Assembly (NCBI GenBank): GCA_021772915.1
Contig: JAJFLB010000056.1
Location: forward strand, 1 to 64,000
DNA: 64,000 bases
Origin: Gammaproteobacteria bacterium
Lineage (GTDB): Bacteria; Pseudomonadota; Gammaproteobacteria; Xanthomonadales; SZUA-36
Direction: 5' to 3'
Shown here one piece after another: positions 940 through 15,009 of the stretch. A model generated the notes under the pieces. That model ran no database searches. It had not been told where the DNA came from and worked only from the letters and a program-made list of their open reading frames with translations. The position numbers and the translations under genes are program-made. Numbering within the stretch: the stretch's first letter is position 1; every line of letters begins with the position of its first letter.

Positions 940-1704
940 ATGAACACCAAGCTGCAAGTACTAGTTATTGACGATGATGCAGTAGTCGGTCGCAGTTTTG
1001 ATCGGGTTCTGACCAATAAAGGCTATGAGGTCGCCACCGCCCTGAGTGGTGAGGAAGGCCTGGAGACTATCGATAACAGAGATTTCGATGTCGTTTTTAC
1101 CGATATCAAGATGCCGGGTATGGATGGACTAGAAGTTACGGAGCGTATCAAGGCACGCTGCCCCTGGACACCCGTGGTTGTTATTACGGGCTATGGCACT
1201 GCTGAAAATGAAGCCAGAGCCTCGGTGCTCGGCGTCAGCGGTTTTGTTAACAAACCGCTATCACCGGAAATCATTGAGAGCATCACGCTAAAAGCGGTAA
1301 ACGAAGCAAAAGACCATACCGATTCGCACGTAGACATTGAACTGGATGTTGAAGTCCATACCGAGGCAACAGAGAAAGTCAGTTTTGCGACAAGAATACT
1401 TGCATTTGGCAAAACCACCGGGATGTTCCTGGCGACACCGTTCATCGCCTTGGGCTACGTTTTCGCACTGCCGTTGGTTGGCCTCTATCAGTTCGCAAAG
1501 CTGGCCCAGGAGGCTTTCAAAAAAGCACATCCAGGTGCAGCGGCCAAGGCTAAAAAAGCGGGTGTTCGTGCAAAAAACGTGGGTCTGTTTTTCGCGTCAC
1601 CCTTCATTGCCCTGGGCTATGTTATAGCACTGCCATTTGTCGGATTCTACATGTTCGCAAAACTGGGCCGCGAAGCCCATGATAAAAAGGTGTTGTCCAG
1701 GTGA
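940..1704 (+). CDS. Receiver protein with two C-terminal hydrophobic repeats
   Basis: Residues 5-120 are a receiver domain (acidic residues at 11-13, phosphoacceptor D55, lysine in NKP near 105). After a linker come two copies of a hydrophobic unit, at about 161-192 and 215-246. Each reads roughly F-A-(S/T)-P-F-I-A-L-G-Y-V-x-A-L-P-x-V-G and ends F-A-K-L. The repeats are long enough for membrane hairpins or embedded helices, so phosphorylation may move the protein to, or signal at, the membrane. AGGAGG precedes the ATG by a few bases. The paralogue at 11476-12078 has only one repeat. It is followed by a nine-heme cytochrome gene 82 bp downstream. The function of the repeats is unknown. Confidence 0.85.
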   Translation: MNTKLQVLVIDDDAVVGRSFDRVLTNKGYEVATALSGEEGLETIDNRDFDVVFTDIKMPGMDGLEVTERIKARCPWTPVVVITGYGTAENEARASVLGVSGFVNKPLSPEIIESITLKAVNEAKDHTDSHVDIELDVEVHTEATEKVSFATRILAFGKTTGMFLATPFIALGYVFALPLVGLYQFAKLAQEAFKKAHPGAAAKAKKAGVRAKNVGLFFASPFIALGYVIALPFVGFYMFAKLGREAHDKKVLSR

Positions 1705-1786: not shown

Positions 1787-3193
1787 ATGACGGCCTCGAC
1801 TAGGGTGAGTGGTGCAATGGGAAACACACGTCCCGTTTTGCCTTCGCTGATAATTTTTCTCATTTTCTGCGCAATTTTCAATGACAGATTGTATGCACAA
1901 CCCGTAGCAGACCCAGCTGCGGAGCTAGCCATTACCAAAAACACTCCGGCGGATTTAGGGACACAGCTTGAAGCCAATCTTAAACAGAACAACAAGTGCC
2001 TGAAATGCCACTCTCGGGAAAAAATCAAAACACTCGAAAGCGGCGAGGAACTCTCTCTGCAAGTACACCGCGACGATTTCACGAGTTCAGCGCATGGTGA
2101 AATCGCTTGTGTGAGTTGTCACGAGGCAATCGGTAGCAGAAGACACCCTTCAAAAAAGACCAATATCACTATCAGTAGCCGGCGTGATTACTCCGTTGAA
2201 ATGAATCAGAGTTGCCGTTCATGTCATGATAAAAAGTCCACTCAGTACGAAGGCAGCATACATTTTTCAATGGTCGGGCAAGGTTCTGAAAAAGCACCTG
2301 TGTGTACAGATTGTCATAGCGCCCACGCGGTCGAGACCATGACGGTGTACCAGCCGGAAACCGGATTTCCCTGTAAGAAATGCCACGAGAATATATTCAT
2401 CGCATATGCCGAAAGCGTACACGGAACGGCCAGGATTAGTGGGAATGTCATTCGGGACAAACACATCCAGGCACCGATCTGTTCAGATTGTCACAGGTCT
2501 CATGAGGTAACTGCGGTGGAAATAGGTGATACCTTACGATCCCAGTGCTTTGGTTGCCACGAGAATGTTCCTCTGTTGCACAGCCAATGGTTACCCAATG
2601 CAGGTACACATCTGGATATTGTTTCCTGTGCTGTTTGCCATGCCCCGTTTGCCAAGCACAGATTTGACCTTCATCTCTATGACAACATCGCTCAGGTTCC
2701 TGTCAATCAGCAAGAGAGTTACAAATTATTCCAGCAACAACTGCAAGATATTGAGGTGGGGGGCAATGTGGATCCGCTGGCAGTCTGGAAACTGATTGAG
2801 GAAAGTAATGAGACCAGTTTGCCTGCAAATATCTCCCTGCGTGGCCGCATGGAAGTAAGATCCGGTGTTTGGGCACACCAGATTGCATCCAAGAGTTTCG
2901 CGGTCAGAACTTGTGATAGTTGCCACCAGGCTGGTAACAGGCAGGCTCTGGATGTAACGGTTTCTGTCCCCCAGCAAGATGGACGAATACAGCGATTTGA
3001 AACCGACCGGGAAGAACTGGACTCTGTTGGTGCAATGAAGTCCATCAGTGAGTTCTTTGCAATTGGCGGTAACAAGAACAGATTGCTGGATATTCTGGTG
3101 TTACTTTCATTGATCATTGGGGTTGCGATTCCAGTTGGCCACTTCACGCTTGGCCAAATGATCAAGGAAAAACTGGACCGAGGAGAGCAATGA
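1787..3193 (+). CDS. Nine-heme periplasmic c-type cytochrome, membrane anchored
   Basis: The 468-residue protein has an N-terminal signal or anchor segment and nine CXXCH heme-c motifs: CLKCH, CVSCH, CRSCH, CTDCH, CKKCH, CSDCH, CFGCH, CAVCH and CDSCH. A C-terminal transmembrane helix (LLDILVLLSLIIGVAI) precedes a short basic tail. The start at 1787 is preceded by AGAGGAG; the longer in-frame extension lacks such a site. It overlaps the next gene, a b-type cytochrome, by 4 bp (ATGA). Together they have the composition of CbcL (nine c-hemes plus a HydC/FdnI-like cytochrome b) but as two polypeptides. The likely role is quinol oxidation with electron delivery to periplasmic carriers. Confidence 0.9.
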   Translation: MTASTRVSGAMGNTRPVLPSLIIFLIFCAIFNDRLYAQPVADPAAELAITKNTPADLGTQLEANLKQNNKCLKCHSREKIKTLESGEELSLQVHRDDFTSSAHGEIACVSCHEAIGSRRHPSKKTNITISSRRDYSVEMNQSCRSCHDKKSTQYEGSIHFSMVGQGSEKAPVCTDCHSAHAVETMTVYQPETGFPCKKCHENIFIAYAESVHGTARISGNVIRDKHIQAPICSDCHRSHEVTAVEIGDTLRSQCFGCHENVPLLHSQWLPNAGTHLDIVSCAVCHAPFAKHRFDLHLYDNIAQVPVNQQESYKLFQQQLQDIEVGGNVDPLAVWKLIEESNETSLPANISLRGRMEVRSGVWAHQIASKSFAVRTCDSCHQAGNRQALDVTVSVPQQDGRIQRFETDREELDSVGAMKSISEFFAIGGNKNRLLDILVLLSLIIGVAIPVGHFTLGQMIKEKLDRGEQ

Positions 3194-3870
3194 TGGCGAC
3201 GAAGAATCCAGAACAAGTTCAGCTCAAAAGTTGGAAAAAAACGAGTGACGGCGAGTTATACATTAATCCTCTGCCCGTGCGTATCTGGCACTGGTTACAT
3301 GCGATGGGTTTTGTGGTGTTGATCCTGACAGGCATTCAAATCAGGTACACAAACCTGTTCAATGTGCTGACCTTTGAAACCGCAGTCAAGACACACAACT
3401 GGGTCGCTTTCGCAGTTATCGCCAACTACTTTATCTGGCTGGGGTTTTATCTTTTCTCAGACAGAATCACGGTCTATCATCCTGAACTCAACCCACGGAA
3501 ATTTTTTGACAAGGCCTTCGAACAAGCAAGGTACTACAGCTATGGCATCTTCAAGGGCGAGCGCAGCCCACATAAGGTACAACCGTATGACAAGTTCAAT
3601 CCGATGCAGAGCATCACCTACCAGATCGTGATGCTGTTGGTTGTTCCTGTCCAGTTCATTACCGGCATTATGATGTGGGATATCAAACGTTTTGAAAGCT
3701 GGATAGCGATGTTCGGTGGAATACAGGTAATAGATACGGTGCACGTGCTGGTATTCATATTCTTCCTGTCCTTTACCATGATCCATGCTTACATGGGTGC
3801 ACTCGGACAGAAGCCATCAACCCACTTCAAAGAAATGTTCACCGGTTTTGAAGAGGAGTACGAAGAGTAG
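3190..3870 (+). CDS. Membrane b-type cytochrome (HydC/FdnI/thiosulfate-reductase type)
   Basis: The 226-residue integral membrane protein has about four transmembrane helices. Candidate heme-b ligands include the histidines in RIWHWLH (helix 1), the KTHNW segment, DTVHVL and MIHAYMG. This matches the di-heme cytochrome b subunit family of hydrogenases, formate dehydrogenases and thiosulfate reductases. It is translationally coupled to the nine-heme cytochrome through ATGA overlap (a second ATG lies at 3193). It should take electrons from menaquinol or ubiquinol and pass them to the c-hemes of its partner. It ends 2 bp from the convergent receiver-GcvH gene, with no room for a terminator between them. 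Confidence 0.88.
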   Translation: MMATKNPEQVQLKSWKKTSDGELYINPLPVRIWHWLHAMGFVVLILTGIQIRYTNLFNVLTFETAVKTHNWVAFAVIANYFIWLGFYLFSDRITVYHPELNPRKFFDKAFEQARYYSYGIFKGERSPHKVQPYDKFNPMQSITYQIVMLLVVPVQFITGIMMWDIKRFESWIAMFGGIQVIDTVHVLVFIFFLSFTMIHAYMGALGQKPSTHFKEMFTGFEEEYEE

Positions 3871-3872
3871 CA

Positions 3873-4661
3873 TCAAAAACTCAGCCATTGCAGGTCGCTC
3901 GCGGGATTTGACGGCAAAATCCGATACAACCATCCTCTGAAATAGGGGTCCTTCTCGACCAGCGAGGGATTCGATTGTGCGTGGGCATTGACCTCAAGAA
4001 TCCGGCCACTCAATGGGCACATAATGCCGTGTGTCGAGCCGTCCGGGGATGTCGCTTCCGCGCAGGGAACGCCCTGCAAAAGGTCTTCGCCAAGCGGCGA
4101 AAGCTTGAATTCCTTTATACCATCCGCCGCCTTTAGGAATAAATCACTCACCCCGATTTTTGCGATCCCCTGGTCTTCCATCAGAACCCAGCTGACATAC
4201 CCGAGCCGGTGGTAGTCTGTAGGACAAGGGACAAAGCTCATGGAGCCATTGCGCGGTAGACTGGCCGACTCGGCCTCGTCCAGAAGCATGCTACAACGGC
4301 GACTGCGCCGAATCACCGTGAGCAATTCATCGGCCGTGAAGGGTTTTGGGATATAGTCGACAGCACCGGTCGACGCCAGGCTTCTGATTGCGTTTTCCAC
4401 AGTGGAGTACCCGGTCATCATGACCACGGGTGTCCGGATACCCTTGCGGGCGAGCTCTTCGAGGAACTGAAAACCGTCGAGGTCGTGCATCATGATGTCG
4501 CAGAGCACCAGACGAAATTCATCTTGGGCCATACACCGAAGCGCCTCCACGGCATTATCTGCCGCGGTGACGGTCATCCCTTCTGCGCCACACACCTTTT
4601 CTACCGCCTGGTTGATCGTCGGTTCATCGTCGATGACCAGAATGTCCCGTACCTGGCTCAC
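3873..4661 (-). CDS. Response regulator fused to GcvH-like domain
   Basis: Residues 1-125 are a receiver (acidic pair in IDDE, phosphoacceptor Asp in LCDIMM, Lys in PKPF). Residues of about 145-255 resemble glycine cleavage H protein: the GYVSWVLMEDQGIAKIGVSD strand region, a CPLSGRILEVN segment, and a PYFRGWLYRI end like the H-protein C-terminus. The lipoylated ESVKA segment of true GcvH is replaced by sequence without the lysine, so it is not expected to carry lipoate. It overlaps the kinase gene at 4658 by 4 bp and is clearly its cognate regulator. With no DNA-binding domain, the H-like domain is presumably the output, binding a partner protein. A second such fusion is at 9859-11025. Confidence 0.85.
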   Translation of the reverse strand: MSQVRDILVIDDEPTINQAVEKVCGAEGMTVTAADNAVEALRCMAQDEFRLVLCDIMMHDLDGFQFLEELARKGIRTPVVMMTGYSTVENAIRSLASTGAVDYIPKPFTADELLTVIRRSRRCSMLLDEAESASLPRNGSMSFVPCPTDYHRLGYVSWVLMEDQGIAKIGVSDLFLKAADGIKEFKLSPLGEDLLQGVPCAEATSPDGSTHGIMCPLSGRILEVNAHAQSNPSLVEKDPYFRGWLYRILPSNPASDLQWLSF

Positions 4662-6523
4662 AATCCCACCGGAATACGGATGATAAAGGTCGTCCCTGCC
4701 CCAACCTCACTTTCCACCGAGATTGTTCCGTTGTGGTTGTCCACGATCCCCCAGGTCACGGCCAAACCCAGACCCGTCCCTTTTTGGCCCTTTGTCGTTG
4801 CAAACGGTTCGAAAAGTTTTGAAATCTGTGTCTTGGGAATGCCACAACCGTCGTCTGTCACCCGAATCTCCACGTATTTGTCGTTCCAGGCGGAATCTAT
4901 CTGTTCCCATTGATGCCAGCCGCATCCATCCCTTAAGCAGCCTTGTACAAGTCCTTTGAGGGGAACTTCGAACGCATAGATGGGGGCCTCGCAATGCGGA
5001 CAGAACTCACCCTCGGCCATGAGTGAGGTAGAGCAATCCGGGCATAGGAACTCGACACCCTCATCAAAGGCGGGCATACCGTTCAAATGATGCTCGGTTG
5101 AACCGTACATGGGATTGAGGTGAATGAGCCCAGTCTGCTTCTTCTTTCGGTAACGCATACTGATGGCAGGTTTTGCGTCAACCTGAATCTTTCTATCTAC
5201 CAGGTCATGCCGTTTCGGACAGAGGGCGCGCTTGATCTGGAGGACTCCCGTGGGACCAAGACTTATTGCCTTACTTGTCACGTTAATGGTTCCCCTGTTT
5301 TCCCCGATGGCGTCCGACGCGTTGACCATCAGGTTGATGAAGACCTGCTGTATCTGGTTGGCGTCCAACGTCACGTTCGGCAGCGTCGTGTCCAGGTCCA
5401 TAACCAGTTCCACCTGCCTCATGGAGAGTTGATTCTCGATTACGGTTGCCGCACGACCGATGATCTCATTAATGTCAGCCTTGCGTTTTTTAGGGACGGT
5501 CTGCCGGGCAAAATCCAACAGACTCTTGACGATCTCGCGGCAGCGGATGGTTTCGGATACTATGACCTGGAGGTCGTCAGCAGTTTCGGGTTGTCCCTGC
5601 GCCCGCTTCAACAGGTAACTACTGTTTGTGAGCACCGCCGTCAGCGGATTATTAATCTCGTGTGCCACCCCGGCAGCCAATCTCCCCAGCGAGGCGAGCT
5701 TGTCCGACTGGAAGAGTTGGAGTCGAGCCTCGGCCAGGTTGTCGGTCATATTATTGAAGGACCTAGCCAACATCCCGAGCTCGTCGTCTCCCTTCACCTC
5801 GACCCGATACCCAAGATTCCCACCGGCGACATGCCGTGTTGCGGTGAGAAGCGCCTGGACCGGTCGGTCAATCCACCATCGAACCAGCAAGCCGATGATC
5901 AGGCTCAGAATAATGATGGCACTGACGGCGAAAATGACAATTGCTAACTGGCTGTGGCGGATGTTCCGGTCAACTTCGGTGAGCGGCATGGTGACATCCA
6001 GTACCCCCAGTACGACCTGTGTTTCAGGGTGCGCATGACAGGCCGCACTCCAGCATGACTGCTCATTGTATATGGGGTTGATGATACCCAGCAGTCGCGA
6101 TGAATCCGGATAGGGTCGGAAAATTCGTGTGCGCTCTTTCTGTTCCAACTGCTCCAGAGGTTCACCCGCAGAGTGGCACCGGTAGCAGCTCTCTGCTTTC
6201 TTGTCGACCATCCTTCCGATCTCGGTGGCGACCGATGAGTAAATGATCTCTCCAGACTTGTTAAATACGCGGATACGGTCAATACTCACCTGCTTACCGA
6301 TGCGACGGATACTCTCATGAATCCCCTTTCGGTCGTTGTGCAACATGTCGTACTCGGTATCCGACTTGACGGCTTCGCTGAGTTGGTTCGCGTGCCGTTC
6401 CACCTCGGTGAGCAGACTCTTTTTTTCAGATTGAATATTGAAAAAGGCGAATACGCCAATCACCACCAGGACCGTCGATACCACTCCGAGGTTTAGCTTC
6501 AGGCTTATTTTGCTATTGAGCAT
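4658..6523 (-). CDS. Sensor histidine kinase with periplasmic heme motifs and Cys-rich insert in ATPase domain
   Basis: The 621-residue kinase begins with a transmembrane helix (about 10-30). The periplasmic domain carries CYRCH (113-117) and a CX4CH motif (157-163), both plausible covalent heme-c sites. A second transmembrane helix (about 191-215) leads to HAMP, then HisKA with VAHEINNP (phospho-His about H288). The ATPase domain has its N-box NASDAI at 401-406, but DDGCGIP (the G1 box) only follows at about 557. The intervening insert of roughly 120 residues holds C435, CPDC at 494-497, CPHC at 508-511, C529 and C534, like a zinc ribbon or rubredoxin knuckle. It probably senses periplasmic redox state or ligands through heme, with a second metal site in the cytoplasm. 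It is followed by its regulator with 4-bp overlap. Confidence 0.9.
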   Translation of the reverse strand: MLNSKISLKLNLGVVSTVLVVIGVFAFFNIQSEKKSLLTEVERHANQLSEAVKSDTEYDMLHNDRKGIHESIRRIGKQVSIDRIRVFNKSGEIIYSSVATEIGRMVDKKAESCYRCHSAGEPLEQLEQKERTRIFRPYPDSSRLLGIINPIYNEQSCWSAACHAHPETQVVLGVLDVTMPLTEVDRNIRHSQLAIVIFAVSAIIILSLIIGLLVRWWIDRPVQALLTATRHVAGGNLGYRVEVKGDDELGMLARSFNNMTDNLAEARLQLFQSDKLASLGRLAAGVAHEINNPLTAVLTNSSYLLKRAQGQPETADDLQVIVSETIRCREIVKSLLDFARQTVPKKRKADINEIIGRAATVIENQLSMRQVELVMDLDTTLPNVTLDANQIQQVFINLMVNASDAIGENRGTINVTSKAISLGPTGVLQIKRALCPKRHDLVDRKIQVDAKPAISMRYRKKKQTGLIHLNPMYGSTEHHLNGMPAFDEGVEFLCPDCSTSLMAEGEFCPHCEAPIYAFEVPLKGLVQGCLRDGCGWHQWEQIDSAWNDKYVEIRVTDDGCGIPKTQISKLFEPFATTKGQKGTGLGLAVTWGIVDNHNGTISVESEVGAGTTFIIRIPVGL

Positions 6524-6551: not shown

Positions 6552-6683
6552 TTAATCCTTGCCTTTGTTTGCCGGAGACTTAAGATACAGCACCAAATAG
6601 ATGAACAAGCCCCAAAAGCACAACAAAAGCAGGTACTCGAGACCTTTGGTTTCAAAAATATTTACATAATAAAATGAGTCCAT
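6552..6683 (-). CDS. 43-residue single-pass membrane protein
   Basis: A 43-codon frame starts at 6683, 14 bp after the NrfD stop, with AGGAAG six bases upstream of the ATG. It begins MDSFYYVNIFETKGLEYLLL, continues as one transmembrane helix (roughly residues 17-34) and ends with a short Lys-rich tail. The FETKGLEYLL stretch before a single helix recalls, from memory, small subunits or N-termini near NrfD/Hmc-type complexes and GcvH-like proteins. I cannot verify that here. Its place between NrfD and the kinase, with a good ribosome site, argues for a small subunit or assembly factor of the membrane complex. Confidence 0.75.
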   Translation of the reverse strand: MDSFYYVNIFETKGLEYLLLLCFWGLFIYLVLYLKSPANKGKD

Positions 6684-6697
6684 TTTAGCTTCCTATT

Positions 6698-7909
6698 CTA
6701 CGTGTGCTGATGATTTGAACTTAATACTGGCATGCGGGTGACAACCCACCTGAATACCCAGATTTGAACGAAGACCACCGTCATCGACACGATAAATTCC
6801 TGCCAGGATGGGAAATAACGTACATCCGCGTACCAGTTGAAACAGATAATGGAAATGTTGAGCCGGTTGAGCAAGATGCCTATCAAGGCCATTACAGCGG
6901 CAATTTTAATGACTTTCACACTTTTGTGCTTGAAGCCAAAGGCAAACATCAAGGCCGGAATCAACACAAAACCAATCACTTCCAAGAGGAACCACAAGCC
7001 AAACCCGTCATTAAGCAACTCCCATTGTTTCTCATGAATGAAAAGTAGTGCTTTGAAAAAATAGTAGACAAACATGGTGATGGCAGCGCCTTTTGCCAGG
7101 CCCAGGACAATGTCTTCAAACGAGCGATGACTGTTGGGCTCCATAAAATTTTTGAACACCCGGTGACTAATCGTTCCCTCGACGATAATCATGGCCAAGC
7201 CTGCATAAACACTGGAGACAAAAAACTGGATCGGAATAAACTCCGACCACCACAGCGGATGAATTTTAGTTTTTGCCATCAGGTATAAGGCCCCAAGGCC
7301 TGATTGATGAAGCAACGACAATGTGATCCCCAAAATAACCGTGGCGAGCGTAAGGCTGGCGAGAAACTTGCGGGCCTTCTCCCAGTGCATCCATTCCGCG
7401 ACAGCTGGAGAAAATTCGATGAATGCTGCAAGCATGTAAAGCAAAAAATGCCAGCAAATCAAGAATAAAATGGAACTGAATCCAAACGAGTTGCCAATGT
7501 AGGGATTATAACCAAACCATGGTCGTCCCAGGTCAAGTAACAGGGCGCCAGCGTAAAAAGTGTAGGCCATGAATCCGTTTAAGACCGTGATGCGTACAAT
7601 GGAGTGGTATTTGTCCACTTTCATCACATAAACCACAAATGTGATGACGTAGGCTCCGCCGGCAAGGGCGACACCGGTAACAACATTAAGACCCTTCCAA
7701 AGACCCCAGGGTACCTCCTGTGAGAGATTGACCACGGATCCGAGGCCGTAGACAAAGCGGAAATACAGGATGATCACGCCGATCAAAATGATCGGAATAG
7801 AGATAACATTAAACGGGGTGAACCATGGCCCGCGTGGCTTCATCTCCTGGATCAGGAATCTAAAGAAATTGCCAAATGAGGCGTAAACAACAGCTTCTTT
7901 ATTCATCAT
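6698..7909 (-). CDS. NrfD/HmcC-type integral membrane quinol subunit
   Basis: The protein is about 403 residues with roughly ten hydrophobic helices (for example GVIILYFRFVYGLG and GGAYVITFVVYVM). It matches the NrfD/PsrC family, in which a conserved helix bundle binds quinol at the periplasmic face without cofactors. The start at 7909, or ATG at 7906, is preferred over the longer frame. AAGGGG lies just upstream and the overlap with the preceding Fe-S gene becomes only 8-11 bp. It follows the Fe-S protein gene and precedes the 43-residue peptide gene. It should exchange electrons between the quinone pool and the periplasmic Fe-S protein and nine-heme cytochrome of the same operon. Confidence 0.88.
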   Translation of the reverse strand: MMNKEAVVYASFGNFFRFLIQEMKPRGPWFTPFNVISIPIILIGVIILYFRFVYGLGSVVNLSQEVPWGLWKGLNVVTGVALAGGAYVITFVVYVMKVDKYHSIVRITVLNGFMAYTFYAGALLLDLGRPWFGYNPYIGNSFGFSSILFLICWHFLLYMLAAFIEFSPAVAEWMHWEKARKFLASLTLATVILGITLSLLHQSGLGALYLMAKTKIHPLWWSEFIPIQFFVSSVYAGLAMIIVEGTISHRVFKNFMEPNSHRSFEDIVLGLAKGAAITMFVYYFFKALLFIHEKQWELLNDGFGLWFLLEVIGFVLIPALMFAFGFKHKSVKVIKIAAVMALIGILLNRLNISIICFNWYADVRYFPSWQEFIVSMTVVFVQIWVFRWVVTRMPVLSSNHQHT

Positions 7910-8789
7910 TCGCCCCTTCATTATTCGTATCAAACTCTCCCTCTATGGATGGCTTGTTGTTGCCTGCAAGTGCATTGAGCCCCAACAAAAAGGCTGGTGC
8001 ACCAAACAAAACCATGGGGACACTGTAAAGGAACTCTTTTGTATACTCCGGATAAGGGGTATTGCCGACGTCATTTGGGAACCCTAGTTGATCAAAAGGC
8101 ACCGCCGACAGATAAATATATCCGGTTCCGCCAACTTCGTTTTCACCATAAATATGGTGTACGTATTTATCTGGATGACTATAGATGCGATGCCTGGCAA
8201 TTTTCAAATTGTTTAACCGGGTGCCGAACATGAGCGCATCCGAAGGACAGGCTTTGACACACGCTGGTTTCTTGCCCTCTTCGAGGCGTTCAAAACACAG
8301 GCTGCATTTCTGGATTTTCGGATTCCATTCATTGAACTCAAATTTCACCAAGTTAAAGGGGCAGGAAATCATGCAGATACGGCAACCGATACACTTATTT
8401 CCCCTCCAAATGACCGGGCCCCCTTCCATTTGCTTCATCGCCTCGGTGGGACAAGCGGTCGCACAGGCCGCCTGGTAGCAATGCATACATTGTCTTTTGA
8501 CAAACACATCGCCCTTTCCCGTCTCAAATTTATTAACCACCGTCCATTGCTTATCACTTGTTTTCCGGTGCTCATCAAGCGCCCCATCGTTAACGACATC
8601 CGGAACAAACATATCGTGTTCATCAGAACACGCAACTTCGCATGCCCTGCAGCCAATACAACGGGTTGTGTCTACCAAAACGCCAACGAACTCTTCTGAG
8701 TTTCGCTGCTCCTGGGCACATGCTTTTTTGCTTGTTAAGGCGGTACCAGCGACGACAAGTGATGTTTTTAGAAAACCTCGTCTATCCAT
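7899..8789 (-). CDS. Tat-exported 4x[4Fe-4S] ferredoxin subunit (NrfC/HmcB/DmsB type)
   Basis: The 296-residue protein starts with a twin-arginine signal (MDRRGFLKTS, then a hydrophobic stretch ending CAQ). Four cysteine clusters follow: CIGCRACEVAC, CMHCYQAAC with CP, CIGCRICMISCP, and CSLCFE with CVKACP. This is the usual pattern for four [4Fe-4S] clusters. A C-terminal hydrophobic segment (VPMVLFGAPAFLLGLNAL) may anchor it next to NrfD. The start follows AAGGAG. It should relay electrons between the NrfD quinol site and the nine-heme cytochrome encoded just upstream. No molybdopterin catalytic subunit is present, so the complex looks like an electron-transfer module rather than a substrate reductase. 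Confidence 0.9.
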   Translation of the reverse strand: MDRRGFLKTSLVVAGTALTSKKACAQEQRNSEEFVGVLVDTTRCIGCRACEVACSDEHDMFVPDVVNDGALDEHRKTSDKQWTVVNKFETGKGDVFVKRQCMHCYQAACATACPTEAMKQMEGGPVIWRGNKCIGCRICMISCPFNLVKFEFNEWNPKIQKCSLCFERLEEGKKPACVKACPSDALMFGTRLNNLKIARHRIYSHPDKYVHHIYGENEVGGTGYIYLSAVPFDQLGFPNDVGNTPYPEYTKEFLYSVPMVLFGAPAFLLGLNALAGNNKPSIEGEFDTNNEGANDE

Positions 8790-8841: not shown

Positions 8842-9807
8842 TCAAGGATTACTCTGTTTTTGTTCCTTCACATGACAGTCAACGCACCCTCTACTTGCTT
8901 CAGCACCAATGCCTGATTCATGACATGCCCAGCAATTTTTGTGGGTGACGACTTTAGAACTGAGTGTCTCGTCTGCAATATTATTCGGGTCTGATTGATG
9001 ACAGTCCCGGCACTTGTAGTACTTTGTACCGGTCGCTGTATCCGGGTTATGGCAGATTTGGCAACTAATCCAGGAAGACGTCAGATAGTCCGGATGAGGG
9101 GTAGCCAACTCCATTGCATGGATCTGGTGGTGACATTCAGCGCACTCCATTTTTACTTCTTCAACATGGGCGCGGTGTGGGAAAAGCACCTTCCCCACAG
9201 ATGACTCAAAAATGATCTCATCCGGCACACCGGGTTTGCTTGGCGGCGCGTTGGGTTGTGCCTCATTCCTGGTCGGAACGGGATGGGCAACTTCAGCCCA
9301 GCGTTTTTGGAAATCAAAACCCTCGAATGTAGGACTTTCCTCGTTGTGGCAGACGGTACAGCCGTCTGCTGTCGCGTTCATAATCAAGCCGGCCGTACGG
9401 GCGGCTTCAGAATCCTTCATAATCTTCTGCGATTTGTAGTCAGAGCCGGGGCCATGACAGGATTCGCAGCCTACACCCTCGCCATCGGTGTACTTGCCCT
9501 TCTCGCTTACAGCCACCCCGCCACCCAGGCTGGCCCGGGTAGTGTGGCACTTGAGGCAGGCGTCTTCCTGCTGGGGGTCGCCTAACCCCAAATCGGCAAC
9601 AATCTTCCTGGCTTCTTCAGTTGCCAGGGTTTCGAAGGCCCTGGCGTGTGCTGACTCAGTCCAGATTCTCCATTGATCCCCGGTCTTGGCCTTATGACAC
9701 GCCTTGCATTTGGGGGCACCAGTGATTTCATGCGCAGCGATCGCTTCATGCGCCGCACTGAACACCAGTCCACCAATAACGAGCAGAGAAACAAAAGACT
9801 TAAACAT
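8842..9807 (-). CDS. Nine-heme c-type cytochrome with c554-like N-terminal part
   Basis: The protein has 321 residues from the ATG at 9807, preceded by GAGG. The longer in-frame start lacks a site. A Sec signal peptide (FVSLLVIGGLVFSAAHEAIA) is followed by nine CXXCH motifs: CKACH, CLKCH, CESCH, CTVCH, CAECH, CQICH, CRDCH, CWACH and CVDCH. The early part, with WTESAHARAF between hemes 1 and 2, resembles the cytochrome c554 family. The later CAECHHQ and CWACH part resembles c7/c3-type modules. It is the first gene of the cytochrome/Fe-S/NrfD set and is probably its periplasmic electron acceptor. Confidence 0.9.
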   Translation of the reverse strand: MFKSFVSLLVIGGLVFSAAHEAIAAHEITGAPKCKACHKAKTGDQWRIWTESAHARAFETLATEEARKIVADLGLGDPQQEDACLKCHTTRASLGGGVAVSEKGKYTDGEGVGCESCHGPGSDYKSQKIMKDSEAARTAGLIMNATADGCTVCHNEESPTFEGFDFQKRWAEVAHPVPTRNEAQPNAPPSKPGVPDEIIFESSVGKVLFPHRAHVEEVKMECAECHHQIHAMELATPHPDYLTSSWISCQICHNPDTATGTKYYKCRDCHQSDPNNIADETLSSKVVTHKNCWACHESGIGAEASRGCVDCHVKEQKQSNP

Positions 9808-9858
9808 AAGCGCCTCACTAATAATCAAAAGGGCTATCAGCAGGTATTAACCAGTATT

Positions 9859-11025
9859 TCAACCCTGCAGAAATGGCTTCGAAAATTCGGCCAGCAGGTT
9901 TTTGTATTCTGCATTCCTGTTTTGCTCGCTCTCCTCTGTTTCATTCGACTCGTGTTGGGAAGTTTCCTCCAGGTATTTATTTGCAAGCTCTTGGTATCTG
10001 TCTACCTCCTGTTGATACCACTGAACCGAATCATGCCCAAATCTAAGTTCAGGCAACTCGCCTGCAAGGTTTGAGGGCTCAATTCCACACATCCAGCTAA
10101 GCCCAAATGGCTTTATCGTCAACCATTCAGGATGTTCGGCATGTTCAGAATTCACGGCAATGACTCTACCGCTGAGCGGGGCGGGTATTTTCAAACTGTA
10201 ATCTTCATATTTTAAAGAAAACAGTATTTCTCCTTTTACAATTTTTTGCTCTATTTTCGGTAACTCAACATGATCAACTTTCTGAAATATCTTTCTAATC
10301 AGATCATCTGGTCCAATCCGCACCGTACCGCTGGAGAGGATCCTTGCCCACGCGTGCTGTGGAGAAACGAAAACACCGGCCGGCACATTAAGTTCGAACT
10401 TGGACTCTGATTCACTGGTACCCGGTTTGATCAAGCGGATTTTGTGACGCATGTGCTTTTCTAAATTGGCCTGCCGCTTTATCAATGCGGTTTTTACAAA
10501 TGCAAGCAATTCATCTTCGGTAAATGGTTTTTCCACATAATCCATCGCACCGAATTTAACGGTTTCCACCGCGGTTTCGATTGATGCATATCCGGTAATT
10601 ACAACCACATCGATGTCGGGACGCAAGTGTTTGACAGCTTTGGTTACCTCGACCCCATCCATCTCCGGCATTTTTAGATCGGTAAACACAAAATCATAGT
10701 CATACTTGTGGATTAGTCCCAGAGCTTCGGAACCCTTTTCCACGGTGTCGATGCTATACCCTTCAAGTACAAGCATTTTACGAAAACTATCCAGAATTGG
10801 TTTTTCGTCATCCACAGCCAGTATTCGAGCCTTCGGATCAGCGACTTCCACACGTTTCAAGGTTAACGCTTCCTCGCTCACGTCCAGCCTCAAACCAATG
10901 TTCAGAGCAGCTTCTCTTTCGTTTCGCAGTCGTTCTTCCCGTGCCCTTTTCAGGAGCACGCGGAGTGCGAGGTCTACCAGGACAAAAGCAACGATTGTCA
11001 CCACTACAATTAAAGCTACAATCAT
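9859..11025 (-). CDS. Membrane-anchored response regulator with GcvH-like domain
   Basis: The start at 11025 is chosen because GGAGGA lies upstream; the longer GTG start contains that site. The 388-residue protein begins with a transmembrane helix (MIVALIVVVTIVAFVLVDLA), then a charged linker. A receiver domain follows at about 65-185 (VDDEKP, FTDLKMP, EKPF). A GcvH-like domain follows at about 210-310 (HAWARILSSGTVRIGPDDL, PLSGRVIAVNSE). The segment aligned with the lipoylation site has Asp where GcvH has Lys. The tail is long, acidic and polar. It overlaps a small upstream Cys-rich frame by 4 bp and is followed 51 bp later by the cytochrome gene. It may be a membrane-held phospho-switch acting directly on the respiratory complex; that is inference. 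Confidence 0.82.
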   Translation of the reverse strand: MIVALIVVVTIVAFVLVDLALRVLLKRAREERLRNEREAALNIGLRLDVSEEALTLKRVEVADPKARILAVDDEKPILDSFRKMLVLEGYSIDTVEKGSEALGLIHKYDYDFVFTDLKMPEMDGVEVTKAVKHLRPDIDVVVITGYASIETAVETVKFGAMDYVEKPFTEDELLAFVKTALIKRQANLEKHMRHKIRLIKPGTSESESKFELNVPAGVFVSPQHAWARILSSGTVRIGPDDLIRKIFQKVDHVELPKIEQKIVKGEILFSLKYEDYSLKIPAPLSGRVIAVNSEHAEHPEWLTIKPFGLSWMCGIEPSNLAGELPELRFGHDSVQWYQQEVDRYQELANKYLEETSQHESNETEESEQNRNAEYKNLLAEFSKPFLQG

Positions 11026-11180
11026 TTTACTAATCCTCCGATATGACACAAACAGCTGTGCTTGTCATGGCATGTCCAAACAACACGCTTTGCTGCTTTG
11101 ATCCAGAAAACGATCGTCTCATTTGAATCCACGGCGCAGACCGGGTCACAACTACTGCATATTTTCTGCAGGGCACTCAT
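11022..11180 (-). CDS. Small Cys-rich protein, coupled to the membrane receiver
   Basis: This 52-codon frame starts with MSALQKICSSCDPVC and contains TCHDKHSCLCH near its C-terminus. The Cys/His spacing would suit a small metal-binding knuckle. Its TGA overlaps the ATG of the receiver gene (ATGA), and that gene's ribosome site lies inside it; this is typical of real coupled genes. The ribosome site of this frame itself is weak, and a longer in-frame start exists at 11246. No family is recognised. It may be the first gene of the operon controlled by the palindrome at 11381-11394. Confidence 0.5.
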   Translation of the reverse strand: MSALQKICSSCDPVCAVDSNETIVFWIKAAKRVVWTCHDKHSCLCHIGGLVK

Positions 11181-11475: not shown

Positions 11476-12078
11476 TCATGTGGAGTTACGTTTTTTCTGA
11501 TAAGCCTCGAAACCCAGTTTTGCGAACATATAAAATCCGACCAGCGGTAAGGCAATGACATAGCCCAGGGCAATGAACGGTGATGCGAAAAACAGGCCAA
11601 TGTTTTTTGCAAATTTACTCACTTTCCGCAATGTTCTCATTTCCTCCACTACCGAGACTTCGGCTTCAATTGCAGTCGCGGTGTTGATGGACCGCTCTTG
11701 GACCTTTTCCGAGTCATCCAGTGCTTTCAGTGTGACGCTCTCAATGATTTCAGGCGTGAGCGGTTTGTGTACAAAACCATTGACACCGAGTACGGAAGCC
11801 CTGGCTTCATTATCTGGAGTTCCGTAGCCCGTTATTACCACCACGGGAGTCCAGGGGCAGCGTGCCTTGATGCGTTCAGCCACTTCAAGACCATCCATAC
11901 CCGGCATCCTGATATCGGTAAAAACGACATCAAACTCCGCGTTATTGATTGTTTCCAGCGCTTCTTCACCGCTCCGTACAGTGCTGACCTCATAGCCTTT
12001 CTCGGTCAGAACCCGGTCGAAACTGCGGCCTACGACCGCATCGTCATCAATGACTAATACTTGTGGTTTGGTATTCAT
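11476..12078 (-). CDS. Receiver protein with one C-terminal hydrophobic repeat
   Basis: The protein has 200 residues from the ATG at 12078, preceded by CAGGAGG; the longer in-frame extension runs back through the end of the upstream gene. The receiver (phosphoacceptor D55 in FTDIRMPG) is nearly identical to that of the protein at 940-1704. After a coiled, charged linker it has a single copy of the hydrophobic unit (FFASPFIALGYVIALPLVG to FAKLG), where the paralogue has two. It is the second gene of an inverted duplicate of the 465-1704 pair. A membrane-associated output is likely; the partner is unknown. Confidence 0.87.
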   Translation of the reverse strand: MNTKPQVLVIDDDAVVGRSFDRVLTEKGYEVSTVRSGEEALETINNAEFDVVFTDIRMPGMDGLEVAERIKARCPWTPVVVITGYGTPDNEARASVLGVNGFVHKPLTPEIIESVTLKALDDSEKVQERSINTATAIEAEVSVVEEMRTLRKVSKFAKNIGLFFASPFIALGYVIALPLVGFYMFAKLGFEAYQKKRNST

Positions 12079-12097
12079 AATGTACCTCCTGGTCCGT

Positions 12098-12553
12098 TTA
12101 ATGGGTAACTGGCTTGTAAAAGGGTTTATAAGTAACCGTTTCCACTGATTGGCAACGCTTCCGGACACTACGCATCGCCCAACGCTTCTGTGTCATGGCA
12201 TCATTGGCTGCCTTGATAATCTCATCCGGCCCTACCGGTTTGGTCAAATAATTGAAAGCCCCCAACCTGACCGCTTGTTTGGCTGACTCGATACTCGGAT
12301 AGCCGGTGATAACGACCACTTCACTGTCGGGCCAGCGCTGTTTAATGGTTTTAAGAACATCCATGCCATCCAGACCCGGCATGCGAAGATCAAGCAGAAT
12401 GACGTCAAAGGGATGCTGTTCCATTACCTGTAACGCTTCCTTGCCATCTTCGGCTGCCCTGGCATTGCAATCAGTGCTTTCAAGACTCCTGAGGTGGCTG
12501 TGACGTACCACTTCTTCATCATCTACGATGAGGATATTGGCCTTGTCATTCAT
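12098..12553 (-). CDS. Single-domain response regulator (paralogue of 465-929)
   Basis: The protein has 151 residues from the ATG at 12553, preceded by AAGGTG. It is a CheY-like receiver with DD at the N-terminal acidic pocket, phosphoacceptor D55 (LLDLRMPG) and lysine in TKPV. Most of its length matches the protein at 465-929 residue for residue. The two diverge after the MTQKRWA segment. It lies 19 bp upstream of its membrane-repeat partner, so the whole two-gene cassette was duplicated in inverted orientation around the respiratory operon. The sigma-54 promoter at 12588-12603 drives it. Confidence 0.9.
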   Translation of the reverse strand: MNDKANILIVDDEEVVRHSHLRSLESTDCNARAAEDGKEALQVMEQHPFDVILLDLRMPGLDGMDVLKTIKQRWPDSEVVVITGYPSIESAKQAVRLGAFNYLTKPVGPDEIIKAANDAMTQKRWAMRSVRKRCQSVETVTYKPFYKPVTH

Positions 12554-13023: not shown

Positions 13024-15009
13024 ATGATGCTGGTGAGTAGGTTAAAAAAAGTCACTCCACCCCACACAATAAGTACCGGTCTGACGTTTCAATCAAAGGC
13101 TTTGGTCATCATGGCACTGCTGGCGGTCATGCAGTTTGCCGTCAGTAACACCGCGTTTGCCGAGCCATCGGACCCCAAGCTCAAAAATGAAAGATGTCTG
13201 CGTTGCCATGGTAGAGAAAATTTTTCCAGGAAGGCGGCCAATGGAGAAGCCAGACAGTTGCACGTTGCGGCTGAAGAATTCAAGCAAAGTGTTCACGGTG
13301 GCCGCGATTGTGTGAACTGCCACAAAGACATTACCAAGGCGCCCCACAGGAAGGGCATCGATCGCAAGGTCGGCTGTGTTCAATGTCACCAGAATCTTTG
13401 GGCAGAGGCACAACAAAGCGGCCAGAATGGTGAAAACGCACGCCTGGGTGTGGTGGTTGAACAGATCGAGAGCTACATGGGTTCCATTCACGCCAGACCC
13501 AGTATTGAGGACCAGTCACGCACTAACGCGACCTGCTATAACTGCCATGACGCACATTATGTTGCGCCAATTGACAGTCACATCGGCGCAAATGGCCGCC
13601 TGAAGATCCCCGAAGTCTGCGGTCAATGTCATGCCGAAATTCTCGCGACCTACATGACCTCAGTACATGGCATGCAGGTCAGCAATGGAAATGCCGGCGC
13701 GGCCGTTTGTAGTGACTGCCATACGACCCATGATATTGAAAAACCGCATGAAGTTTCCGGCAAGTTGGTCATTACAGAAAATTGTGGAAACTGTCATCAT
13801 GACAACCTGGAATCCTATACCGAAACCTATCATGGCAAAGTGACCCGTCTTGGTTATGGAGAAACAGCCAAATGTTACGATTGCCATGGCTCCCACGGCA
13901 TAAAACGAACCCACGACGCCACTTCGATGGTTCATAACGGCAACCGACTGGAAACCTGCCAGACCTGTCACGAAGACGCAACCGAGGGTTATGTCACATT
14001 CCAGCCACATGGTACGACAGACGATTTCAAGAATTACCCCGAAATGTGGTTAGCCTCCAAGGGAATGATTGGTTTGTTGTTGGGCACATTTGCATTTTTC
14101 TGGCTCCACTCCGCGCTGTGGTTTTACCGCGAATATCAGGACCGCAAGCACGGCAAGGACCGGCCCCACATCATGCTGGAAGATCTGCCAGCGGGTAAAA
14201 CCCACTTCAGCCGCTTCACACGCTGGTGGCGACTGGCACACCTGGTGGGGGCACTTTCCATCATGTTGCTGGCGCTGACAGGACTGACGGTATTGTTCTC
14301 TGGCAGTGCCTGGGCACCACTCGTGATGAAACTGCTGGGTGGTCCTGTCGTGGCGGGTATTCTTCACCGAATCGGTGCCGTCGGATTTATGAGCGTGTTT
14401 TTCATACACCTTATTTATTTCGCCTTCCATATTGGCCGAACCTGGAGGACATTCGAATGGTTCGGACCCAACTCCCTGATCCCCAACTGGGATGATCTCA
14501 AAGACGCCATCGCGATGTTCCGGTGGTTCTTTGGACTGGCACGACGTCCGATTCTTGATCACTTCAGCTACTGGGAGAAATTTGATTACTGGGCTCCGTT
14601 CTGGGGCATGACGATAATTGGTGTCAGCGGTATGATGATGTGGTACCCCGCCGTGACGGCCTCGCTGCTACCCGGATGGGTATTCAACGTTGCCGCCATT
14701 GTGCATGGTGAGGAAGCAATCCTGGCTGTGGTGTTCCTGTTCACGGTGCACTTTTTCAACAATCACTTCCGGCCGGACAAGTTCCCGCTGGATACCACCA
14801 TGTTCACCGGCAGTGTCCCGCTGGAACACTACAGACATGAGCACCGGCGTGAATATGACCGCCTGGTTGCCAGCGGTGAACTGGATAAGTATTTAGTGGA
14901 TGCGCCATCGCAGCCAATGGCCCTTGGGTCAAAGATCCTGGGCACAGTATTGGTCATTATCGGCCTGAGTTTGCTGACGCTGGTCCTGCTCGGCTTTTTG
15001 GGTATTTAA
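13024..15009 (+). CDS. CbcL-like fusion: nine-heme cytochrome c plus membrane cytochrome b
   Basis: The 661-residue protein has a signal/anchor segment and a periplasmic domain to about residue 330 with nine CXXCH motifs: CLRCH, CVNCH, CVQCH, CYNCH, CGQCH, CSDCH, CGNCH, CYDCH and CQTCH. The C-terminal half has about six transmembrane helices with candidate heme-b histidines in RLAHLVG, ILHRIGA, IVHGEEA and TVHFFNNH. Nine c-hemes fused to a HydC/FdnI-like cytochrome b is the layout of Geobacter CbcL, an inner-membrane quinol oxidase for extracellular electron transfer. The same parts are two genes at 1787-3870. It is probably transcribed with the tetraheme lipoprotein downstream, which could accept its electrons. 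AAGGA precedes the start. Confidence 0.88.
   Translation: MMLVSRLKKVTPPHTISTGLTFQSKALVIMALLAVMQFAVSNTAFAEPSDPKLKNERCLRCHGRENFSRKAANGEARQLHVAAEEFKQSVHGGRDCVNCHKDITKAPHRKGIDRKVGCVQCHQNLWAEAQQSGQNGENARLGVVVEQIESYMGSIHARPSIEDQSRTNATCYNCHDAHYVAPIDSHIGANGRLKIPEVCGQCHAEILATYMTSVHGMQVSNGNAGAAVCSDCHTTHDIEKPHEVSGKLVITENCGNCHHDNLESYTETYHGKVTRLGYGETAKCYDCHGSHGIKRTHDATSMVHNGNRLETCQTCHEDATEGYVTFQPHGTTDDFKNYPEMWLASKGMIGLLLGTFAFFWLHSALWFYREYQDRKHGKDRPHIMLEDLPAGKTHFSRFTRWWRLAHLVGALSIMLLALTGLTVLFSGSAWAPLVMKLLGGPVVAGILHRIGAVGFMSVFFIHLIYFAFHIGRTWRTFEWFGPNSLIPNWDDLKDAIAMFRWFFGLARRPILDHFSYWEKFDYWAPFWGMTIIGVSGMMMWYPAVTASLLPGWVFNVAAIVHGEEAILAVVFLFTVHFFNNHFRPDKFPLDTTMFTGSVPLEHYRHEHRREYDRLVASGELDKYLVDAPSQPMALGSKILGTVLVIIGLSLLTLVLLGFLGI

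Follow-up and report, generated by a model that had tools for sequence, protein, structure and literature searches.

The 43-residue membrane peptide encoded behind a NrfD-family gene in the window, by which we mean the whole stretch of 64,000 nucleotides analysed here, is best read as an accessory subunit, similar to HmcD, of a small complex of the Hmc/Nhc type that lacks HmcE and HmcF, and we put the probability of this reading, taken together with the mechanism proposed below, at about 0.78. In this complex the single helix of the peptide would join three other components: a cytochrome c with multiple haems, an HmcB-like iron-sulfur protein and a quinone-binding NrfD protein that is HmcC-like.

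The open reading frame of the peptide (MDSFYYVNIFETKGLEYLLLLCFWGLFIYLVLYLKSPANKGKD) starts with ATG and stops with TAA, is separated from the end of the NrfD-family gene by 14 nt, and carries an AGGAAG site 5 nt ahead of its ATG; the gene of a HAMP histidine kinase starts 28 nt past its stop codon (Table 1). A single hydrophobic stretch was found in the peptide (residues 14-32, mean Kyte-Doolittle value 2.07), and AlphaFold predicted one helix spanning residues 3-35 with a mean pLDDT of 76. The earlier note, which had described a 43-residue frame 14 bp after NrfD with an AGGAAG site and one transmembrane helix, was thus accurate as to coordinates, gap, site and hydrophobic stretch. Weak matches of the peptide to the photosynthetic reaction-centre H chain and to bacteriorhodopsin were rejected as sub-threshold helix matches. 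Scanning the window with Rfam at gathering thresholds gave no match, and promoter and terminator scans of the window returned sites no more numerous than in shuffles.

Table 1. Genes of the operon that contains the peptide, in order of position in the window.
Feature	Position	Strand	Basis or remark
Response regulator, C-terminal GcvH-like domain	3873..4661	minus	Pfam Response_reg E 2.4e-27, GCV_H E 1.4e-14
HAMP histidine kinase, CYRCH haem-type motif in presumed periplasmic part	4658..6523	minus	Pfam and motif
HmcD-like one-helix peptide, 43 aa	6552..6683	minus	ORF, family profile, synteny, pN/pS, AlphaFold
HmcC-like NrfD-family quinone-binding membrane subunit	6698..7912	minus	start codon uncertain; ORF 6698-7933
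HmcB-like iron-sulfur protein, 17 Cys	7899..8789	minus	NCBIfam HmcB NF045715
Multihaem cytochrome c, nine CxxCH	8842..9807	minus	start codon assigned inside ORF 8842-9828
Response regulator, hydrophobic N-terminal segment and C-terminal GcvH-like domain	9859..11049	minus	Pfam Response_reg E 4.6e-29, GCV_H E 1.7e-11

Along the operon the genes are ordered receiver-GcvH, cytochrome, HmcB-like, HmcC-like, peptide, kinase and second receiver-GcvH. The HmcC-like protein matched the NCBIfam HmcC model NF045714 (E 2.7e-114; 382 bits, below the cut-off of 550) and exceeded the cut-off of Pfam NrfD (E 3.3e-12; 47.1 bits against 25.8), so that the neighbour of the peptide is indeed of the NrfD type; a search of solved structures by sequence gave no match to this protein at E<=0.001. 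The HmcB-like protein likewise matched its NCBIfam model below the cut-off (E 9.1e-89; 298 bits against 420), and its N-terminus is Tat-like (Pfam TAT_signal below cut-off), with a hydrophobic C-terminal tail recognised by eye. The cytochrome reached only 30 bits with the HmcA model (E 1.8e-7, cut-off 400) and is thus not assigned to the 16-haem HmcA, and a search of the operon genes between 3873 and 11049 revealed neither hmcE nor hmcF.

Some further features of the window were recorded beside this operon. In the kinase, a four-cysteine stretch of the form CPDC...CPHC lies between the HisKA and HATPase_c matches. At 940-1704 (+) and 11476-12168 (-), response regulator sequences continue into hydrophobic segments (type F.ASPFIALGYV.ALP.VG.Y.FAKL), of which the former has two copies and the latter one. 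Two more nine-CxxCH cytochromes were found among the genes at 1787-3193 (+), 3190-3870 (+) and 13024-15009 (+); one has a cytochrome b561-type gene as its neighbour and the other includes a cytochrome b-like part, so that the operon may belong to a larger island of multihaem electron transfer.

Homologues of the peptide were sought in the family, that is, the genome of the window and its relatives, by a six-frame search of 61 genomes, which gave 15 copies at E<=1e-13 in 14 of them, its own genome included; eight further matches, all at E>=0.046, were treated as chance. The 15 copies are 65-84% identical to the window peptide in the alignment, and each has an HmcC-like NrfD gene on one side and the same histidine kinase on the other. 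A wider scan, in which each species was represented by one genome and the patterns YVNIFETK and LLL[CS]FW[VAG]LF were used, gave 55 loci, among which the invariance of YVNIFETK is partly built in by the search pattern; 14 are on contigs already found in the family search and 41 are additional. Their record labels include Gamma-, Beta- and Alphaproteobacteria, Acidobacteria, Thermoanaerobaculia, Bacteroidetes, Ignavibacteria, KSB1, Calditrichota, Spirochaetes and Deltaproteobacteria, besides others. HmcC lies directly upstream of the peptide in 52 of the 55, and in the other three (L063, L072 and L078) no more than about 140 nt of contig precede the peptide. The peptide is thus conserved in related operons, following an HmcC-type NrfD gene in 15/15 family places and 52/55 wider loci, and the lack of conservation by which the earlier note would have let itself be refuted was not what we found.

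The association was then examined from the opposite end, starting from HmcC. The HmcC-based search covered 39 family genomes, 247 genomes of the phylum of G065 (the genome of L044) and 296 of the phylum of G067 (L051), and, in the phylum of G076 (L072), 140 genomes were searched with an HmcC family model; these three genomes, chosen as search centres, carry the peptide themselves. The best places of each search, at most 30, were taken as test loci, 101 in all. Where HmcC was at least 53% identical, 26 of 27 of these best-placed loci gave a match to the peptide profile downstream (E<=4.1e-8), and the one miss, L117, stops at a contig end. Sixteen of these 27 belong to the own family, five (L127-L129, L157 and L158) lie on contigs of the 55-locus scan, and six (L089, L090 and L130-L133) are new. 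At 41-46% identity, where all ten loci are new, eight gave a weaker match to the peptide profile (E 3.1e-6 to 3.4e-3); of the other two, L088 has a peptide over the NCBIfam HmcD cut-off and L136 has an HmcD-type helix upstream instead. At 37% identity or less, the peptide was present in 0 of 64 loci, with no match below E 0.8 within 700 nt downstream on the same strand, these 64 being part of the distant loci found (the best 30 places per search). Altogether 16 of the 37 loci at 41% or more (L086-L090 and L130-L140) are on contigs absent from both peptide searches. Two HmcC places at this level fell outside the 101 loci, namely G075:C111 (54%), with a peptide match 40 nt beyond HmcC, and G445:C132 (41% over 221 residues). 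In the family, 37 genomes were searched for both genes: 14 have the peptide (E<=1e-13) together with an HmcC at 67% identity or more, and 23 have neither.

In an HmcC tree of 80 rows, the 64 helix-bearing rows (50 with a separate helix and 14 with a fused one) fell on one side of a branch with SH-aLRT support of 100 and 16 rows without the helix on the other. The tree is a quick one in which several long branches were flagged, and the tree program warned that the long branch leading to the 64 rows meets a long row (L092), a join that may be false; the helix-less HmcC were sampled by taking every fourth (16), and two labels were set by hand, L088 as standalone and L136 as fused with its gene upstream of HmcC. 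The helix thus tracks one HmcC clade.

The relation of the peptide to HmcD was analysed by profile comparison. The NCBIfam HmcD model NF045712 (cut-off 34 bits) matched the peptides that follow HmcC in L086, L087 and L088 with 47.8, 35.7 and 36.6 bits, respectively, and the HmcC of L086 is itself over the NCBIfam HmcC cut-off. These three peptides were taken to represent HmcD, standing in for that of D. vulgaris. The window peptide gave no match to NF045712 at E<=10 and, since it falls short of this cut-off, it is left outside the HmcD equivalog. Sixteen of 27 relatives of the window peptide match the model, the best at E 1.1e-6, and the peptides of L130 and L133 scored 26.9 and 25.8 bits, under the cut-off. 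When the alignment of the peptide family (A2) was compared by hhalign with the peptides of L086, L087 and L088, a probability of 97% and a score of 45-46 were obtained; control scores reached at most 13.2 for 150 three-row segments of the HmcC alignment and 14.7 when the columns of the HmcD alignment were shuffled 100 times, and after removal of the bridging sequences the probabilities were 94% and 92%. At the level of profile comparison, this shows the peptide family to be homologous to HmcD. Because HmcD is a small product of the hmc operon, this homology makes it most likely that the peptide is a subunit of the membrane complex; the suggestion to that effect in the earlier note is therefore supported by both HmcC synteny and HmcD homology, from which we infer membership in the complex. 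The note itself had made no connection with HmcD or GcvH.

The same helix also occurs as part of larger proteins. In L054, L057 and L061, from Bacteroidales and Marinilabiliales records, a protein with a length of about 236-240 residues begins with the peptide, and fusions of the helix to a GcvH-like domain follow HmcC in L089, L090, L131, L132, L134, L135 and L137-L140 and precede it in L136, so that the helix begins a GcvH-like-domain protein in 14 HmcC loci in total. On the HmcC tree, five changes are required to account for the fused state, and starred branches force three or more of them. All four fusions tested against Pfam matched GCV_H (E 3.6e-20 to 8.8e-24), and the fusion of L089 matches solved GcvH structures by sequence. 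An AlphaFold model of the HmcD-GcvH fusion of L057, built from three rows, was set aside, its mean pLDDT being 36.5.

At the position of the lipoyl lysine of E. coli GcvH, the aligned residue in L089 is Asp, and the aligned lipoyl column holds no lysine in any of 15 rows (13 fusions and the two regulators of the window). A lysine stands one column later in L054, L057, L061 and L089, so that a slip of one residue is not fully excluded in these four. Because the aligned column lacks lysine in all 15 rows, the GcvH-like domain is probably not a lipoyl carrier.

GcvH-like domains are also found near the standalone form of the peptide. Among standalone loci with at least 4 kb of upstream sequence, ten of which lie on contigs already found in the family search, 33 of 36 contain a GcvH-like ORF, and in 30 of these 33 the domain starts past residue 140 of the ORF, as in the receiver-GcvH proteins. 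The training set of the profile comprised 13 fusions and the two regulators of the window, whose matches are thus given by construction; the four fusions mentioned above were checked independently against Pfam. In the three misses (L055, L056 and L070) the standalone peptide occurs with HmcBC and no GcvH-like ORF was found in the DNA of the locus. Of the five GCV_H matches in the own genome (4.68 Mb), one stands far above the rest with 142 bits and is presumably gcvH itself; the two regulators that flank the operon rank second and third. Two observations concern the tails of these proteins: the peptides of L063, L067, L069 and L072 are 83-89 aa long and have a cysteine motif in the presumed cytoplasmic tail, with CP near its end, and a similar cysteine motif was seen by eye ahead of the GcvH-like stretch in L091.

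The C-tail was the more positive end in 51 of 56 peptides (four were opposite and one was a tie). By the positive-inside rule the helix would thus have its N-terminus outside and its C-terminus in the cytoplasm, and because the C-tail is placed inside by this rule, a fused GcvH-like domain would be cytoplasmic as well, like the receiver-GcvH proteins. In the literature, solved NrfD-type subunits are described with a quinol site at the P-side, and HmcC as possibly electrogenic (PMC8076601, PMC6303296); with the quinol site on that side, the conserved helix start [FY].TKG.EYL would sit near the quinone site and HmcB. We propose that this start binds HmcC close to the outer face, the side of the quinone sites in the NrfD family, and that the helix would stabilise a complex moving electrons between a periplasmic cytochrome c and the quinone pool. 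An accessory subunit role of this sort is likely. More tentatively, the cytoplasmic tail might mark the side at which a GcvH-like domain, either fused or, as in the window, carried on response regulators, meets the complex, and such a contact might link the state of the complex to the adjacent haem-kinase two-component system; contact of the inner end of the helix with the GcvH-like domain is speculative.

These last steps can be taken further, to a reading in which HmcD-type helices are docking anchors, a GcvH-like domain without lipoyl lysine being either fused to their cytoplasmic end or recruited by it, and in which the receiver-GcvH proteins of a haem-sensing two-component system directly read or gate a quinone/cytochrome c complex. 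We regard this extension as possible but doubtful. If true, it would provide a function for HmcD and would couple phosphorelay signalling physically to a respiratory complex, which would be new. The strongest rival to our explanation, to which we give somewhat less than an even chance, is a purely structural helix that stabilises HmcC, as do small subunits of other respiratory complexes, the nearby GcvH-like domains belonging to unrelated regulation of the same regulon. This alternative keeps the subunit part of our explanation and denies the docking part alone. It fits with the helix start being the most conserved part of the peptide, the tail varying in length from a few to about 50 residues, and with the HmcD peptides of L086, L087 and L088, which stand alone after HmcC; however, it does not account readily for the direct and repeated fusion to the GcvH-like domain, nor for the presence of a GcvH-like ORF near nearly all of the testable standalone genes.

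It could also be envisaged that the peptide acts on the neighbouring histidine kinase as a small membrane regulator and does not belong to the quinone complex, as the kinase gene comes directly after the peptide in all 15 places of the window and its family. In the wider scan, however, the nearest kinase match is at the far upstream end in L040, L045-L049, L055, L056, L059, L060, L068 and L074, and on the other strand in L065, and in these 13 loci the peptide is still found directly after HmcC, as are the HmcD peptides of L086-L088. The position of the kinase is not fixed and the HmcC neighbour is kept; the peptide therefore goes with HmcC, and a role as kinase regulator is improbable.

The coding nature of the gene was evident from its pattern of substitution. 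Over 38 codons and 17 sequences, pN/pS was 0.15 (pS 0.64, pN 0.096), and variable positions were concentrated at the third codon position (35/38, as against 18/38 at the first and 10/38 at the second). The peptide gene is a selected protein-coding gene. The tight spacing on either side, 14 and 28 nt, could suggest a leader peptide whose translation merely couples expression of NrfD and kinase and whose product has no role, but such strong selection on the amino-acid sequence, the retention of the peptide where the next gene differs and its occurrence as a domain of larger proteins make this very improbable. A chance reading frame can be dismissed: short frames are common, and a six-frame count over the window gives 335 ORFs of 35-60 aa, but the peptide alone among them has a 19-residue stretch so hydrophobic, and conservation, the HmcC-first test and pN/pS already refute it.

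The HmcD-like subunit proposed here can be set against several known systems. The hmc operon of D. vulgaris encodes HmcA-F, in which HmcD is a 'hydrophobic peptide' (PMC10924467). A proteome table lists HmcD at 5.8 kDa, and each of its three columns shows a dash for HmcD as well as for HmcE (PMC10920352). Like HmcD (NF045712, 'sulfate respiration complex protein HmcD'; D. vulgaris DVU_0533, P33391), the window peptide is encoded directly after an HmcC-type gene and has about 40-50 aa, one helix and a TKG..Y-type start. It differs in missing NF045712, in its own motif YVNIFETKGLEYLL and in an operon without hmcE and hmcF, and the complex as a whole differs from that encoded by hmcABCDEF in a cytochrome of nine rather than sixteen CxxCH. 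No stated function for HmcD was found in the available parts of the literature on the hmc operon; a helix that marks one HmcC clade across many phyla and repeatedly occurs fused to, or together with, GcvH-like domains offers a testable idea of that function, and the peptide profile allows the annotation of an easily missed gene.

The domain of the fusions and of the flanking response regulators matches GcvH, the glycine cleavage H-protein (Pfam PF01597), but differs from it in an aligned lipoyl column without lysine, and the peptide itself is not GcvH. In the open-licence PubMed Central literature, we found no report of an HmcD-GcvH fusion among the matches listed and no paper naming both GcvH and NrfD, and the available portion of PMC10564751 mentions neither Hmc nor GcvH.

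In a locus of cable bacteria with DsrOhPh and a tetrahaem cytochrome, a one-helix protein, TMH1, has been described as unique to cable bacteria (PMC13047784). It resembles the peptide, by description, as a single-helix protein beside an NrfD-family pair and a multihaem cytochrome, but its NrfD partner is DsrP-like (PMC13047784). A similar layout is that of Nhc, a simplified Hmc without E and F (PMC4215793), whose NhcD is included in a table of NrfD-type complexes and whose NhcC genes are reported from Deltaproteobacteria, Clostridia, Acidobacteria, Bacteroidetes, Chlorobi, Nitrospirae and Thermodesulfobacteria (PMC8076601). By description, NhcABCD of Desulfovibrio, the nine-haem cytochrome complex, shares with the operon of the window the arrangement of cytochrome c, FeS protein, NrfD-type protein and small D subunit with no E or F (PMC8076601, PMC4215793). 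The window cytochrome has nine CxxCH, but five were counted in 33 of 39 related loci with a complete 5' end (nine in the other six), and the regulators are different. The kind of protein, a HmcD-like subunit, is thus known; the variant without E and F, with receiver-GcvH regulators and with repeated fusion to a GcvH-like domain, looks new.
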